Below are positions 2,310-35,305 of a stretch of DNA of 35,786 nucleotides, one piece after another. A program made the translations under genes and the position numbers. The notes below the pieces were generated by a model that saw only the letters and a list, made by a program, of their open reading frames with translations, made no database searches and was not told the origin of the DNA. Source of the DNA: a virus; IMG/VR virus record IMGVR_UViG_3300009339_000005, positions 1 to 35,786 of that record; one strand, 5' to 3'. The first letter of the stretch is position 1, and every line of letters begins with the position of its first letter.

Positions 2310-2314
2310 AACAC

Positions 2315-2327
2315 GTGACTCGCGTGA
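2315..2327. promoter_or_regulatory. Putative integrase arm site (GTGACTCGCGTGA), left of core 1
   Basis: GTGACTCGCGTGA at 2315-2327 is the exact reverse complement of TCACGCGAGTCAC at 3334-3346 and nearly that of TCACGCGGGTTAC at 2445-2457. The latter two lie exactly 22 bases past their att cores. Inverted sites flanking a core are what phage integrase arm sites look like. Confidence 0.45.
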
Positions 2328-2338
2328 CACAGCCCATT

Positions 2339-2572
2339 ATGTACGTATTTGTTAAGTCATTGTATTTATTCATTAAAAGCTCTAGCGGGCGTGGTGAAAT
2401 TGGTAAACACAAGGGACTTAAAACTGCTACTGTAACTGGATTAGTCACGCGGGTTACCTCCACCTTACTGAATTACAACAATAACTTAGAAGATAAAATA
2501 TCTGTTGCGTTAGGTAACAGGTCGGATGACCTGTGCCTTGGGCGTGACACAACAAAGCTTAAAAGAAGATGA
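2339..2572 (+). CDS. Open frame running through att core 1, 77 aa (doubtful)
   Basis: An ATG at 2339 opens a frame that reads through the 39-bp tRNA-like core and ends at 2572, just inside the start of the next gene. Over 29 codons after the core it aligns without gaps to the frame crossing the second core (3186-3458), with shared residues TGL.TRVT and ISVA. Base differences fall mostly in third codon positions. That hints at coding constraint, but the same bases also carry the arm-type repeats. I would not treat it as a proven gene. Confidence 0.25.
   Translation: MYVFVKSLYLFIKSSSGRGEIGKHKGLKTATVTGLVTRVTSTLLNYNNNLEDKISVALGNRSDDLCLGRDTTKLKRR
2385..2423 (+). other. attP: att core copy 1: 5' half of tRNA-Leu(UAA)
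   Basis: Thirty-nine bases begin GCGGGCGTGGTG and end GGGACTTAAAA. This is the 5' half of a bacterial tRNA-Leu: acceptor strand, D arm with GGTAAACAC, anticodon-stem strand AGGGA and anticodon loop CTTAAAA with UAA anticodon. The match stops exactly at the end of the anticodon loop; no TCCCT strand, variable arm, T arm or acceptor partner follows, so this is not a tRNA gene. Cyanophage P-SSP7 and pelagiphages carry comparable tRNA-Leu matches beside int, which supports calling it the attP core. Confidence 0.85.
2445..2457. promoter_or_regulatory. Putative integrase arm site right of core 1
   Basis: TCACGCGGGTTAC starts 22 bases after the end of core 1. It matches TCACGCGAGTCAC, at the same distance from core 2, with two differences, and is inverted relative to GTGACTCGCGTGA at 2315-2327. 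Confidence 0.45.
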
Positions 2573-2967
2573 ATAACCGAATACCGATCACGTCCGAACC
2601 TTCTCATTTTTTGTACGTCGTACAAGAACTCAACAAAGGCGCTGACAGTTGGCAAAACACACAACGCGGGAGCAGTGACCGAGGAGAAGCTTACGAAGAA
2701 ATGTATGCTTTGGCGTCCGAACACAAGAAGGCAGGGAACTTTAAACTCATGCGAGTAGCAAGAACCTTACTGAAAACGACTACTAAAAAGGAAATGCGCG
2801 ACGTAATCGTTTTGTTTCCTGACGATACCGAACCCACGGTCGTGGAGCGAGTCGAGGTCGAGCTTCATTGGAACTTCGTGTTCGACGATTGGTGTCTTAC
2901 GGAAGCGTCCAATCGTCAGCTTGAACAAATTAGAGTTAAGGCACTAACGAATGAAAGACAGTTATGA
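2569..2967 (+). CDS. Hypothetical protein, 132 aa, carried between the att cores
   Basis: This gene lies wholly between the two tRNA-derived cores. The product is soluble, starts MNNRIPITSEPSH, has a basic helical middle (about residues 50-75, EHKKAGNFKLMRVARTLLKTTTKKEM) and a more acidic C-terminal part with VVERVEVELHWNFVFDDW. No known motif, membrane segment or signal peptide is visible. It overlaps the next small gene by ATGA, so the two are probably translated together. Its place inside the attachment region suggests cargo such as an accessory, defence, anti-defence or lysogeny gene, but the sequence itself does not say which. Confidence 0.65.
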   Translation: MNNRIPITSEPSHFLYVVQELNKGADSWQNTQRGSSDRGEAYEEMYALASEHKKAGNFKLMRVARTLLKTTTKKEMRDVIVLFPDDTEPTVVERVEVELHWNFVFDDWCLTEASNRQLEQIRVKALTNERQL

Positions 2968-3137
2968 ATATCGAGGAAAGAATAATGCACTACATCAACA
3001 GCCATCCAACTAAGGAAGACCCCAACATAAAATGGGAGTTCATCTTTAACGGAAAACGTGCATGGGAAAACGTCTGTTATATGCGGTGCCAAAATACAGG
3101 ACTAGTTCTGTTCATCCCGTCCGTGATTTTTGCATGA
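2964..3137 (+). CDS. Hypothetical protein, 57 aa, coupled to the preceding cargo gene
   Basis: The ATG at 2964 overlaps the preceding stop as ATGA, and the frame ends with TGA at 3135-3137. The product begins MNIEERIMHYINSHPTKED and continues with KWEFIFNGKRAWENVCYMRC and a hydrophobic C-terminus, LVLFIPSVIFA. It contains two cysteines three residues apart (VCYMRC), too few for a classic zinc finger. The coupling, and the natural protein-like composition, argue for a real gene. No family is recognised. It completes a two-gene unit enclosed by the duplicated att cores. Confidence 0.55.
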   Translation: MNIEERIMHYINSHPTKEDPNIKWEFIFNGKRAWENVCYMRCQNTGLVLFIPSVIFA

Positions 3138-3176
3138 AAACCGTCCGATCAGATGTCTTTAAAACTAACTTGAAAG

Positions 3177-3215
3177 GTGGCACAAATGGCTTTATGTGAC
3201 ACAACTGTGGCACAA
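3177..3215. repeat. GTGGCACAA / GTGACACAAC repeats left of core 2
   Basis: GTGGCACAA occurs at 3177-3185 and 3207-3215, 30 bases apart, with GTGACACAAC between them at about 3196. Relatives lie at about 2325 (GTGACACAGC) and about 2537 (GTGACACAAC), and at the int 3' end on the other strand. They are probably protein-binding sites belonging to the left arm of the second attachment site. Confidence 0.4.
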
Positions 3216-3458
3216 GGGGGTAAATACACAGATTCCCCGAAAAAAGAATCGTTATATTACAAGGGTTTAGTACGCGGGCGTGGTGAAATTGGTAAACACA
3301 AGGGACTTAAAAGCTCGAACATTACAGGACTAATCACGCGAGTCACCCCTAACTTATTCAATCAATTCAATTATTTAGTTGACATTATATCCGTTGCTTC
3401 GTTGAGTAAAGGCGTAGCACGGTGTCGAACCTGTGTCGCAACCAACCTAACAATTTAA
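3186..3458 (+). CDS. Open frame running through att core 2, 90 aa (doubtful)
   Basis: ATG 3186 (or GTG 3177) opens a frame across the second tRNA-like core, ending eight bases before the RNA polymerase gene. Its core-encoded GRGEIGKHKGLK and following TGLITRVT and ISVA match the frame through core 1. The upstream sequences of the two frames are unrelated. The third-position bias of the differences is suggestive, but overlap with att sites makes a protein-coding role uncertain. Confidence 0.25.
   Translation: MALCDTTVAQGGKYTDSPKKESLYYKGLVRGRGEIGKHKGLKSSNITGLITRVTPNLFNQFNYLVDIISVASLSKGVARCRTCVATNLTI
3274..3312 (+). other. attP: att core copy 2: identical 5' half of tRNA-Leu(UAA)
   Basis: All 39 bases are identical to 2385-2423 and in the same orientation, again ending at the last base of the anticodon loop. 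The sequence just upstream is different and contains TATATT at 3253-3258. The sequence downstream is clearly related to that after core 1 but much diverged. Perfect identity of the cores against diverged flanks implies selection or recombination keeping them the same. Confidence 0.8.
3334..3346. promoter_or_regulatory. Putative integrase arm site right of core 2
   Basis: TCACGCGAGTCAC starts 22 bases after the core end, the same spacing as at core 1. It is the exact reverse complement of the site at 2315-2327. Confidence 0.45.
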
Positions 3459-3465
3459 CAAACGA

Positions 3466-5880
3466 ATGGATCAGCTAGAGCTTAACCTAGAGATGACCGA
3501 GTCGGGTATTGCCCGTTATCGGAAGAAGGTAAAGTCTGCCCAAGAACGTGGCAAGGAGTCCGAGTCTGCTTATGGTCAGCGTCTCATGCGTGGAGGTTTG
3601 CCCAAACTTATCGACGAAGTAACCAAGCGCATCGAGTATCATCGAAAGAACCCGCACGCCGTGCCTGTTTGGATGCCGTTGGTATGGGACACCGAACCGC
3701 AGACTATTGGGATGCTCGCTCTTAAATGTACGCTCGACAGCATATGTAACAGGCGACCACTCGTATCCACGGCTATTCGCATAGCGTCGTTTATCGAAGA
3801 CGAACTTCATTACCGCTGGCTCAAGGCTGAACATCCGACTGTCTTTCATTACGCTGCGAAGGACGTCGAGAAGATGAGCAAGCGCAGTTACCGACGCAAG
3901 GTCGATGCTTTCATGCGTCACGAACGGGGCGAAGGGAAGAAAGGCAACCTCGAACGTTGGCAATCTTGGACGAGACGCGACAAGGTAGCAATGGGTACTT
4001 GGTTGTTGGAGATCATCCGCACGACTACTCATTACATAGCTTTCAAGACGATAGGCGAGCGCCAAAAGACTGTTTTGTACGTGACTGCAACCGACGATTT
4101 GTTTGCGTGGATACAAAGATATAACTCTGACCAAGAATTGTTACGCCCATTGTGGTTGCCTATGGTGGAAGCTCCACGTCCTTGGGTATCGGCATGGCAT
4201 GGAGGATACGCTCCAGACGCTGGACTGCCCATGCCTACTTTGATCAAGACTTACGACATGGATTACCTGCGTAGTTTGGAAGCTGAAGACATGAAACCCG
4301 TGGTTGATGCGGTCAATCACGTTCAGTCGACAGCGTGGATGGTGAACGACAAAGTTTTGGAGGTAGCTCGTTGGGCATGGGATAATGATCGGGAGATTGG
4401 GGAGATGTGCAGACGATCAGACTACGAGCTACCTCCTTTCCCTCCTCAAGCTGTGGACGACAAGGAACTGAAGAAGGAGTACAGCAGAAAGTGCGGTTCG
4501 ATTCACCATCTCAACCTGTCCATGCGCAGTCAACGATTGCATCTCATCAAGACGTTGTGGTTGGCTGAGAAGTACGCAGGTAAACGCTTTTACTACCCGC
4601 ACCAGCTCGACTTTCGTGGACGGATGTATCCGATTCCATACTTCTTGTCGCCACAGGGAACGGACTTGGCGAAGTCTTTGCTTCAATTCAGCGAGTCTCA
4701 AACGATATGGAAGCCCGACACGGAAGCCCGTTGGCTTGCCATACACGGAGCCAATCAATTCGGGAAAGACAAGATAACCTTTGACGAACGAGTCGCTTGG
4801 ATACACGAGAAGAAGAACGAGATCTTCGAAGTCTGCAAAGACCCAATCGCCAACGACTGGTGGACGGAAGCGGATGAGCCTTGGCAGTTCCTAGCGTTCT
4901 GTTTCGAGTGGGGCGCGATGTTGGAATGCGGGGGAAGGGGATTCAAGACGCGATTGCCAGTCGCAATGGATGCGTCAAACAACGGTATTCAAATACTTTC
5001 TTTGTTGGGAAGGGATGAGGTCGGCGGTGCTGCTACGAACGTTACGCAAACGGACGAGCCCGCCGACCTCTATTCCTTTGTATCCGACAGGGTCAACGAA
5101 CTGTTGCTGATTGCTGCGAAGAAGGGCGATCACATTGCAACAGCTTGGTTGAAGTTCGGGGTGGACAGGAAGACGACCAAGCGTCCAGTCATGGTCAAGC
5201 CCTATGGGGGTACGAGATACAGTTGCAGGGAATACGTGTCCGAATGGTATGGCGAGAAGTGCTTGAAGAACAATACCGACCCGTTCGGTAACGAAGCCAT
5301 GGTCGCCATTGGTCAACTGTCCAAGCTCGTTTGGAAAGCAATGGACGAATGTTTAGACCGCCCGAACGCAGTGATGAAATGGTTACAAGACATCGCCCGT
5401 GTTCTTGGACACGAAGGCAAGGCGGTCGAATGGACTAGCCCTCTTGGTTTCAAAGTCAAACAACGGTACGCAAACACCAAGGCTACACGTATACGCACGC
5501 TATTGGGAGAGAAGGTTTCGTTTGTCAAGTGGAAGGAACCTTTGTCCGATCTCGACAAGATACGCCAAGCGAACGGGATCAGTCCCAACTTCGTTCATAG
5601 CCTTGATGCGAGCGTCGCTCAATCTACTGCCAACTACGCCAATGAACACGATATCAATTCGTTGGCTATGGTACATGACTCGTTTGCCACGCACTGTAAC
5701 AAGTGCGACCTGCTTGGTGTCATGATCCGCAAGTCGGCATCCGAAATATTTTCAACCGATCTACTCGCGCAGTTTCGTGATGAGATCAAACAACAAACCG
5801 AGAAGGAATTACCAGACCTACCCCCTTATGGATCGCTCGATCCGCTTGAGGTGTTGGGTTCTGATTATTTCTTCGCATAA
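3466..5880 (+). CDS. T7-like single-subunit DNA-directed RNA polymerase
   Basis: This 804-residue polymerase would transcribe the phage middle and late genes from phage-specific promoters. It is shorter than T7 gp1 (883 aa) but has all catalytic landmarks: DFRGR at 382-386, metal-binding Asp502 in MDASNNGIQ, Lys572 and Tyr580 in TKRPVMVKPYGG (the T7 Lys631/Tyr639 region), His711 in NFVHSLDAS and second metal-binding Asp738 in MVHDSF. It ends SDYFFA, resembling the FAFA foot of T7. It lies immediately after the second att core, so an element inserted there would separate int from the polymerase. Host RNA polymerase must transcribe it first; I see no clear promoter directly in front. Confidence 0.97.
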   Translation: MDQLELNLEMTESGIARYRKKVKSAQERGKESESAYGQRLMRGGLPKLIDEVTKRIEYHRKNPHAVPVWMPLVWDTEPQTIGMLALKCTLDSICNRRPLVSTAIRIASFIEDELHYRWLKAEHPTVFHYAAKDVEKMSKRSYRRKVDAFMRHERGEGKKGNLERWQSWTRRDKVAMGTWLLEIIRTTTHYIAFKTIGERQKTVLYVTATDDLFAWIQRYNSDQELLRPLWLPMVEAPRPWVSAWHGGYAPDAGLPMPTLIKTYDMDYLRSLEAEDMKPVVDAVNHVQSTAWMVNDKVLEVARWAWDNDREIGEMCRRSDYELPPFPPQAVDDKELKKEYSRKCGSIHHLNLSMRSQRLHLIKTLWLAEKYAGKRFYYPHQLDFRGRMYPIPYFLSPQGTDLAKSLLQFSESQTIWKPDTEARWLAIHGANQFGKDKITFDERVAWIHEKKNEIFEVCKDPIANDWWTEADEPWQFLAFCFEWGAMLECGGRGFKTRLPVAMDASNNGIQILSLLGRDEVGGAATNVTQTDEPADLYSFVSDRVNELLLIAAKKGDHIATAWLKFGVDRKTTKRPVMVKPYGGTRYSCREYVSEWYGEKCLKNNTDPFGNEAMVAIGQLSKLVWKAMDECLDRPNAVMKWLQDIARVLGHEGKAVEWTSPLGFKVKQRYANTKATRIRTLLGEKVSFVKWKEPLSDLDKIRQANGISPNFVHSLDASVAQSTANYANEHDINSLAMVHDSFATHCNKCDLLGVMIRKSASEIFSTDLLAQFRDEIKQQTEKELPDLPPYGSLDPLEVLGSDYFFA

Positions 5881-35141: not shown

Positions 35142-35235
35142 AGGCTGGGTGCTCGTTCGATTACTAGTCAAGTCAGGACGTTATTTGGTACGTAGTTTGG
35201 GTCAGAAGGTTAAAGCTGCGTTAAGATGGCGTTAA
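35131..35235 (+). CDS. Cationic amphipathic peptide, 34 aa (37 from ATG 35122)
   Basis: GAGGA at 35118-35122 lies eight bases before ATG 35131, a good ribosome site; an in-frame ATG at 35122 would add three residues. The product starts MLSKGWVLVRLLVKSGRYLV and continues RSLGQKVKAALRWR. It has nine Lys/Arg and no acidic residues in 34, and basic residues alternate with hydrophobic ones as in amphipathic antimicrobial helices. It overlaps the acidic 62-aa gene and is the last gene before the terminator. Phage phiKT encodes a cationic 56-aa peptide (disruptin) that breaks the outer membrane in lysis; a similar role here is inference. Its last codons run into the 11-bp repeats. Confidence 0.5.
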   Translation: MLSKGWVLVRLLVKSGRYLVRSLGQKVKAALRWR

Positions 35236-35250
35236 GATGGCGTTAAGATG
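35218..35250 (+). repeat. Three tandem 11-bp repeats GCGTTAAGATG
   Basis: Units lie at 35218-35228, 35229-35239 and 35240-35250, followed by a partial copy GCGTTTAAGG. T7-like genomes carry short tandem repeats beside their terminal repeats, so this may mark the approach to the genome end. The first unit also encodes the end of the cationic peptide. Confidence 0.85.
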
Positions 35251-35305
35251 GCGTTTAAGGTCGGAATAGTTTCGTTGTAAAAATCTGAAGTCCCTAACGC
35301 TATAT

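Follow-up and report, generated by a model that had tools for sequence, protein, structure and literature searches.

The window, by which we mean the whole 35,786-nt stretch analysed (positions 1 to 35,786 of IMG/VR record IMGVR_UViG_3300009339_000005), contains most of the genome of a T7-like phage, an autographivirus. Pfam cut-offs are met for RNA_pol (6e-93), Helic-prim_T7_N (2e-18), DNA_pol_A (5e-48), Head-tail_con (2.5e-89), Gp10A-like (1.6e-67) and Terminase-T7 (2.4e-40), and the gene criteria of the Autographiviridae (RNA polymerase, primase-helicase, family A DNA polymerase, connector, capsid and terminase) are satisfied. So is the layout of Autographiviridae with an integrase: int, then an attP consisting of a tRNA half, then the RNA polymerase gene. 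Between int and the RNA polymerase gene, the window has a first tRNA-half core, an ORF of 132 aa, an ORF of 57 aa and a second core, in that order (Table 1). The presumed catalytic residues of the integrase, R200, H284, R287, H310 and Y319, are invariant in nine relatives. A scan for promoters and terminators gave signal no better than chance, and no group I intron or other Rfam RNA was detected in the window.

Table 1 Features of the int-RNA polymerase region of the window.
Feature	Position	Strand	Basis and remarks
Tyrosine integrase, 345 aa	1272..2309	+	Pfam Phage_integrase 8.8e-29, PHROG integrase 5.6e-57; conserved in relatives
Resident left arm (P), CGTGAC-type repeats	2310..2384	+	73/78 to L004; GTGNC 48/kb in 2280-2384
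Core 1, tRNA-Leu(UAA) 5′ half	2385..2423	+	Repeat finder, ARAGORN, host-genome matches
Cassette right arm (P′), of foreign type and lacking TTGACA	2424..2560	+	62/100 to native; own clade; 92% to right arm of second L033 cassette
Cargo gene, 132 aa	2569..2967	+	ORF; no significant family
Cargo gene, 57 aa	2964..3137	+	ORF; overlaps 132-aa gene by ATGA; no family
Cassette left arm (P), GTGRCACAA repeats	3140..3273	+	14/78 to native; GTGNC 45/kb, no random window as dense
Core 2, tRNA-Leu(UAA) 5′ half	3274..3312	+	Repeat finder; L033 has a further 1,050-bp cassette at core 2
Hypervariable spacer right of terminal core	3313..3323	+	8/11 mismatches to L033; 622 nt to the next one
Resident right arm (P′)	3324..3465	+	Core-2 right flank 142/153 to L004
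T7-type RNA polymerase, 804 aa	3466..5880	+	Pfam RNA_pol 6.3e-93

The two cores are identical over 39 nt (GCGGGCGTGGTGAAATTGGTAAACACAAGGGACTTAAAA), start 889 bp apart and are embedded in a weaker 124-nt repeat (76%); an exact repeat of this length in the window is not attributable to chance. Each core corresponds to the 5′ half of a tRNA-Leu gene with anticodon UAA and ends with the anticodon loop. ARAGORN called tRNA-Leu(taa) in three phage contigs that carry the same half, and no complete tRNA was found in the window. All cores are in direct orientation, and both are perfect in every multi-core phage. Three phage contigs with the core, L027, L029 and L039, carry a whole tRNA-Leu gene and were rejected as unrelated to the array.

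Within the 889-bp segment, hereafter the cassette, the stop codon of the 132-aa ORF overlaps the start codon of the 57-aa ORF. Searches of Pfam, PHROGs and PADLOC returned nothing significant for either protein, tblastn with the 132-aa protein against isolates found no match, and only one phage in the viral collection searched encodes that protein. Single-sequence structure models of the 57-aa and 132-aa proteins, with mean pLDDT of 68 and 37 respectively, were too poor for use. None of the cassettes, that of the window included, was found to contain a recombinase or mobilisation gene.

Three relatives, L002, L003 and L004, have integrases 95-96% identical to that of the window, a single core, no cargo, and 271 bp separating int from the RNA polymerase gene. 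The flanks of the window's cores that face outwards match L004 (73 of 78 positions left of core 1 and 142 of 153 right of core 2), whereas those that face inwards do not (14 of 78 for the left arm, 62 of 100 for the right). Because of this difference, we assign the outer arms to the resident attP and conclude that the DNA between the cores arrived as a unit. The resident left arm probably extends into the 3′ end of int as well. No repeated site was found between int and the RNA polymerase gene in isolates LUZ100, BB8, HTVC109P, CRP-804, CRP-361, HTVC019P, ProddE and YIMV22061.

A tree of right arms bears out the foreign character of the inner ones: The inner arms of the window and of a second record, L033, cluster together with L013 and L094 (support 0.993), those of L031, L036, L037 and L038 form another cluster (support 0.986), and the outer arms join single-core relatives, so that inner arms are not sister to the outer arm of their own phage. 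The motif TTGACA lies at a fixed place in native right arms and is absent from cassette arms. The cassette-type right-arm DNA pattern was found only in L033, and the left-arm pattern CCTTRSTSAGYAAGGGATGCGG was confined to five contigs, which all belong to this phage group. A near-palindrome, CCTTRSTSAGYAAGG, abuts the core in the left arms of the L031, L036, L037 and L038 cassettes and of the second L033 cassette; it is absent from native left arms and from the window's cassette.

The arms are also rich in repeated motifs. GTGNC occurs at 5.6/kb genome-wide versus 48, 29, 45 and 20/kb in the four arms of the window. Within each lineage, cassettes included, left arms match the inverted right arms (for example GTGACYCGCGTGAC and CGGAACYGTGACGCG; the matching sequences are GTGACTCGCGTGA in the outer arm of the window, GTAACCCGCGTGAC in its inner arm and CGGAACYGTGACGCG in L037), and across lineages this match is weaker or absent. 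For the window's inner arm, the complementarity is only modest: 14 of 500 shuffles reach its score. Since the arm motifs fit the lineage, the cassettes seem adapted to the integrase of the resident phage; binding of Int to these motifs is inferred from sequence alone, without binding data.

L033 (IMGVR 3300009132_000273) has one mismatch to the window in the 2,614 nt up to core 2. The 889-bp cassette is identical in both, with no mismatch over 1,190 nt spanning it. L033 has three cores: In addition to the window's cassette, it contains a core-bounded insertion of 1,050 bp exactly at core 2, made up of a cassette-type right arm, a gene for a 263-aa N4/N6 DNA methyltransferase (Pfam 5.1e-33) and a left arm. 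Beyond the third core, L033 is again collinear with the window, with 8 differences in the first 11 nt and 7 in the next 4,989. The right arms of the two L033 cassettes are 92% identical and their cargo is unrelated. The methyltransferase is a member of a family that is very common in phages (closest match 73%), and a search with it yielded no further cassette.

The 11 nt that differ so strongly adjoin the anticodon loop; their counterpart in L033 is at 3704-3714 (reverse complement), and the spacer of 11 nt beside the terminal core also varies within the close pairs L009/L010 and L012/L015. Tyrosine recombinases commonly exchange strands at the anticodon loop of tRNA genes, and the hypervariable 11 nt may belong to the exchanged stretch. 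The pattern remains unexplained, because the spacers of L033 are not what one crossover between a cassette and a window-like phage would produce.

The arrangement recurs in a second lineage, whose integrase is 61% identical to that of the window and whose two-core members have other cargo. L031 and L038 each contain a 523-bp cassette with one small ORF, which is thus known from two separate metagenomes (3300032011 and 3300037674), and L037 contains a 1,130-bp cassette with four small ORFs; the contig L036 begins inside a cassette that likewise has other cargo. About 4 of the 50 contigs that include both the end of int and the start of the RNA polymerase gene carry more than one core, so the multi-core state, though uncommon, has arisen more than once in the sample. 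Every multi-core sequence comes from a metagenome contig. The second L033 cassette and L036 have left arms that are identical at 128 of 132 positions, compared with ~65-67% for other aligned blocks of these genomes; of all observations, this common arm points most strongly to movement between lineages, which is itself an inference.

Genes have been gained at this place without a second core too. L006, L023, L095, L114 and L118 have morons between int and the RNA polymerase gene, which shows that other routes of gene arrival exist, and L013 combines a cytosine methyltransferase gene with a cassette-type arm yet lacks a second core. The int-RNA polymerase interval is a hotspot for accessory genes. 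Separately, we observed a C5 cytosine methyltransferase gene at this intergenic place, without a second core, in L006, L023, L034, L095 and L013, and, by eye, PAPS-reductase-like or HNH-like ORFs in L094, L114 and L118.

A first-pass annotation, made from the window's letters without database searches, had described much of this structure. Its identical 39-bp tRNA-Leu(UAA) halves, in direct orientation and 889 bp apart, held exactly; its two coupled genes without a recombinase between the cores held in the ORF list and profile searches; and its reading of the remaining inner sequence as one right and one left arm held in the flank test and the arm tree, both arms being foreign. Its statement that relatives have a single tRNA match beside int is correct for most of them. 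Variants lacking the gene pair, set beforehand as a test, were found (the one-core L002-L004), as were the predicted alternative numbers of cores and cargo (three cores in L033, other cargo in further phages). The proposed comparison of relatives from int to the RNA polymerase gene thus returned one, two and three cores with differing cargo, in support of the idea that the attachment site is a landing pad.

We searched 84,980 species genomes for the exact 39-bp core and found it in 31 stretches, 27 of which continue into the tRNA-Leu 3′ half. All 31 are labelled Proteobacteria, nearly all of them Alphaproteobacteria or Rhodospirillales, and the host is likely to be a marine alphaproteobacterium. 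No close prophage was found in the core-bearing host genomes, no cassette was found at tRNA-Leu in the 31 stretches with the exact core, and no parent ICE or IME or chromosomal copy of a cassette was found in the species genomes with the core. The missing chromosomal cassette is weak evidence, because the genomes are one per species and mostly fragmented.

Integrated elements do occupy this tRNA-Leu in alphaproteobacterial genomes. Three host MAGs (L063:2545-3091 (-), L064:37-598 (+) and L075:424-925 (-)) have the tRNA-Leu 5′ half and, ~200-270 bp on, a second tRNA-Leu(UAA) in which a group I intron (Rfam RF00028, 51-68 bits) splits the anticodon loop; in L063 and L064 an integrase-like ORF adjoins the split gene. 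Judging from sequence alone, these elements seem to supply a replacement tRNA in which the intron hides the attachment site.

The explanation we consider likely is accretion: Recombinase-less cassettes that have their own attP arms are added by integrase-mediated site-specific recombination. The phage attP would act as a docking site for such small gene cassettes, each bringing a full phage-type site of left arm, 39-bp tRNA-Leu core and right arm, and the phage's own tyrosine integrase would recombine this site with the phage attP. The predicted product is P(phage)-core-P′(cassette)-cargo-P(cassette)-core-P′(phage). The attP on the RNA polymerase side could then accept the next cassette, giving a growing array, of which states with 0, 1 or 2 cassettes are observed, and cassettes might exit again by the same reaction. 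The comparisons establish that cassettes are present or absent exactly at the core, that the outer flanks are conserved and the inner arms foreign, that cargo differs and that the arm motifs fit the integrase; site-specific recombination accounts for the topology, the exact borders and the growth of the array. Mobility is inferred, without recombination data, as are Int as the agent, a circle or a tandemly integrated element as the partner, and the possibility of cassette exit.

The route was given in the first-pass annotation as recombination of a small circle with its own attP into the phage attP. This is not shown: tandem integration followed by joint excision fits equally well, a free circle and a chromosomal cassette cannot be told apart by sequence because both yield the same product, and no circle or stand-alone cassette was found in the collections searched. 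The accompanying phrase “one-slot integron” failed, because arrays grow and cassettes stack, and the alternative of a satellite reduced to cargo has no positive support.

A variant of accretion starts in the host: Recombinase-less islands would reside at the host tRNA-Leu, the phage would integrate alongside, and joint excision via the outer sites would capture the cassette. This is compatible with our preferred explanation, and we lean slightly against it. In its favour, the end structure is identical and a free cassette circle becomes unnecessary; among conjugative elements, tandem CIME-ICE composites are documented to move together (PMC5704250), transient integration at tRNA-Leu is known from T7-like marine phages (PMC8776855), and integrated elements exist at this tRNA-Leu in alphaproteobacterial genomes. 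Against it stands the absence of a cassette from the 31 exact-core stretches, which weighs little given the sampling described above. A fixed passenger is unlikely. Here, a single past site-specific entry would have left what is now an ordinary accessory pair, with no present use for the second core, as might be suggested by the identity of the window's cassette in the sole other carrier found, by the restriction of the 132-aa protein to one phage in the viral collection, and by L013, which resembles a cassette that lost a core. However, the second core is intact, L033 gained a cassette exactly there in a near-identical background, and one cassette arm is common to distant lineages.

Two further explanations fare worse. 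In the first, which gives the integrase no part, attP was duplicated in tandem or phages recombined homologously at the tRNA half, after which unrelated genes were inserted between the copies and one core decayed. This could draw on the 39-bp identity and the partly similar arms, which could support exchange, and on the genes gained without a second core in L006, L023 and L095. It is nevertheless very unlikely: the inner arms fall in separate clades and are not copies of the adjoining outer arm, the borders lie exactly at the core, every multi-core phage keeps perfect cores, and the same arrangement is seen again with other cargo and with one to three cores. An assembly artefact, in which reads of a one-core phage were joined to other elements at the tRNA-half repeat, has to be considered since a 39-bp repeat can mislead short-read assemblers and the multi-core sequences are all metagenomic. 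It is all but excluded by the presence of the 889-bp cassette in two records, the window and L033, without a mismatch over 1,190 nt, by the 523-bp cassette in contigs of two metagenomes (3300032011 and 3300037674), and by the lineage-fitting motifs of the cassette arms.

Integrase-mediated accretion at attP has its closest known likenesses in CIME accretion and in pdif modules. CIMEs are elements that have lost their integration and transfer genes while retaining att sites, and accretion both stacks and moves them (PMC5704250). As in accretion of the ICESt1/ICESt3 type (PMC5704250), att-bounded segments without a recombinase would be stacked by the site-specific integrase of a neighbour and could travel in cis, and two of the CIME criteria are satisfied by the cassettes: they are bounded by att sites of one integrase family, with identical cores and arm motifs, and no integrase or transfer genes were found in them. 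CIMEs have been described in chromosomes, for conjugative elements, whereas the window's array is in the attP of a virus, and the phage units are 0.5-1.1 kb long with one to four small genes and show no decay series from a full element. In the case of pdif modules, XerCD moves plasmid segments that have no recombinase (PMC13141974). In Acinetobacter plasmids these pdif (dif) modules (PMC13141974, PMC6449649) likewise consist of small, site-bounded cargo without a recombinase that varies between otherwise equal replicons, but they depend on host XerC/XerD acting on dif-like sites. The phage cassettes would use the phage integrase and have a 39-bp tRNA-Leu half with long arms, all direct, as their boundary, so that the pdif criterion of dif-like XerC/XerD boundary sites is not satisfied.

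Integron cassettes also form an array of small cargo units at a single site adjoining an integrase gene. Their attC criterion is not satisfied, the site here being a tRNA half with arm sites and no attC hairpin, and the window integrase matches only general phage integrase models (an IntI-specific domain was not screened separately). Phage satellites such as PICIs and PICMIs (PMC10803314) resemble the cassettes in being passenger DNA that exploits phage functions; here, in contrast, the passenger is inside the phage genome, without an integrase or a recognisable regulator or packaging gene, and does not satisfy the satellite criterion of an own integrase or regulators and a genome apart from the helper. 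The T7-like marine phages P-SSP7 and S-TIP37 and pelagiphages (PMC8776855, PMC3861242) share int, an attP that is a tRNA-Leu fragment, and a nearby RNA polymerase gene, but the relevant sections of these reports describe a single attP and no cassettes. The literature searched, which largely leaves out preprints and subscription journals, contained no description of cassettes stacking at the attP of a phage.

It is an open question what makes mostly lytic T7-like marine phages retain an integrase and a tRNA attachment site. In T7-like cyanophages, integration at tRNA-Leu was found to be transient, without stable lysogeny, and the benefit has been called uncertain (PMC8776855). Cassette stacking at attP would offer a testable benefit, namely modular capture of accessory genes by site-specific recombination; captured methyltransferases may counter restriction. 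If this is true, att-bounded recombinase-less modules extend from chromosomes and plasmids to virus genomes. A bolder reading, for which we see as much reason to doubt as to believe, is that these phages retain integrase and attP to serve as a gene-capture port, instead of or besides lysogeny: A pool of non-autonomous cassettes with attP arms of their own would circulate between lineages, with Int inserting and removing them and arrays of accessory genes, DNA methyltransferases among them, growing before the RNA polymerase gene in an integron-like viral system.

Two kinds of smaller repeat were also seen. The second-lineage cassettes (L037:5364-6530 (-), L036 and L038) contain small ORFs beginning MKDKN...MWPTP, and these are repeated inside one cassette of L037, as if sub-units had multiplied within it. 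Near the end of the contig, at window positions 35209-35252, there is a short tandem repeat of ~four copies of an 11-bp unit, GTTAAGATGGC.
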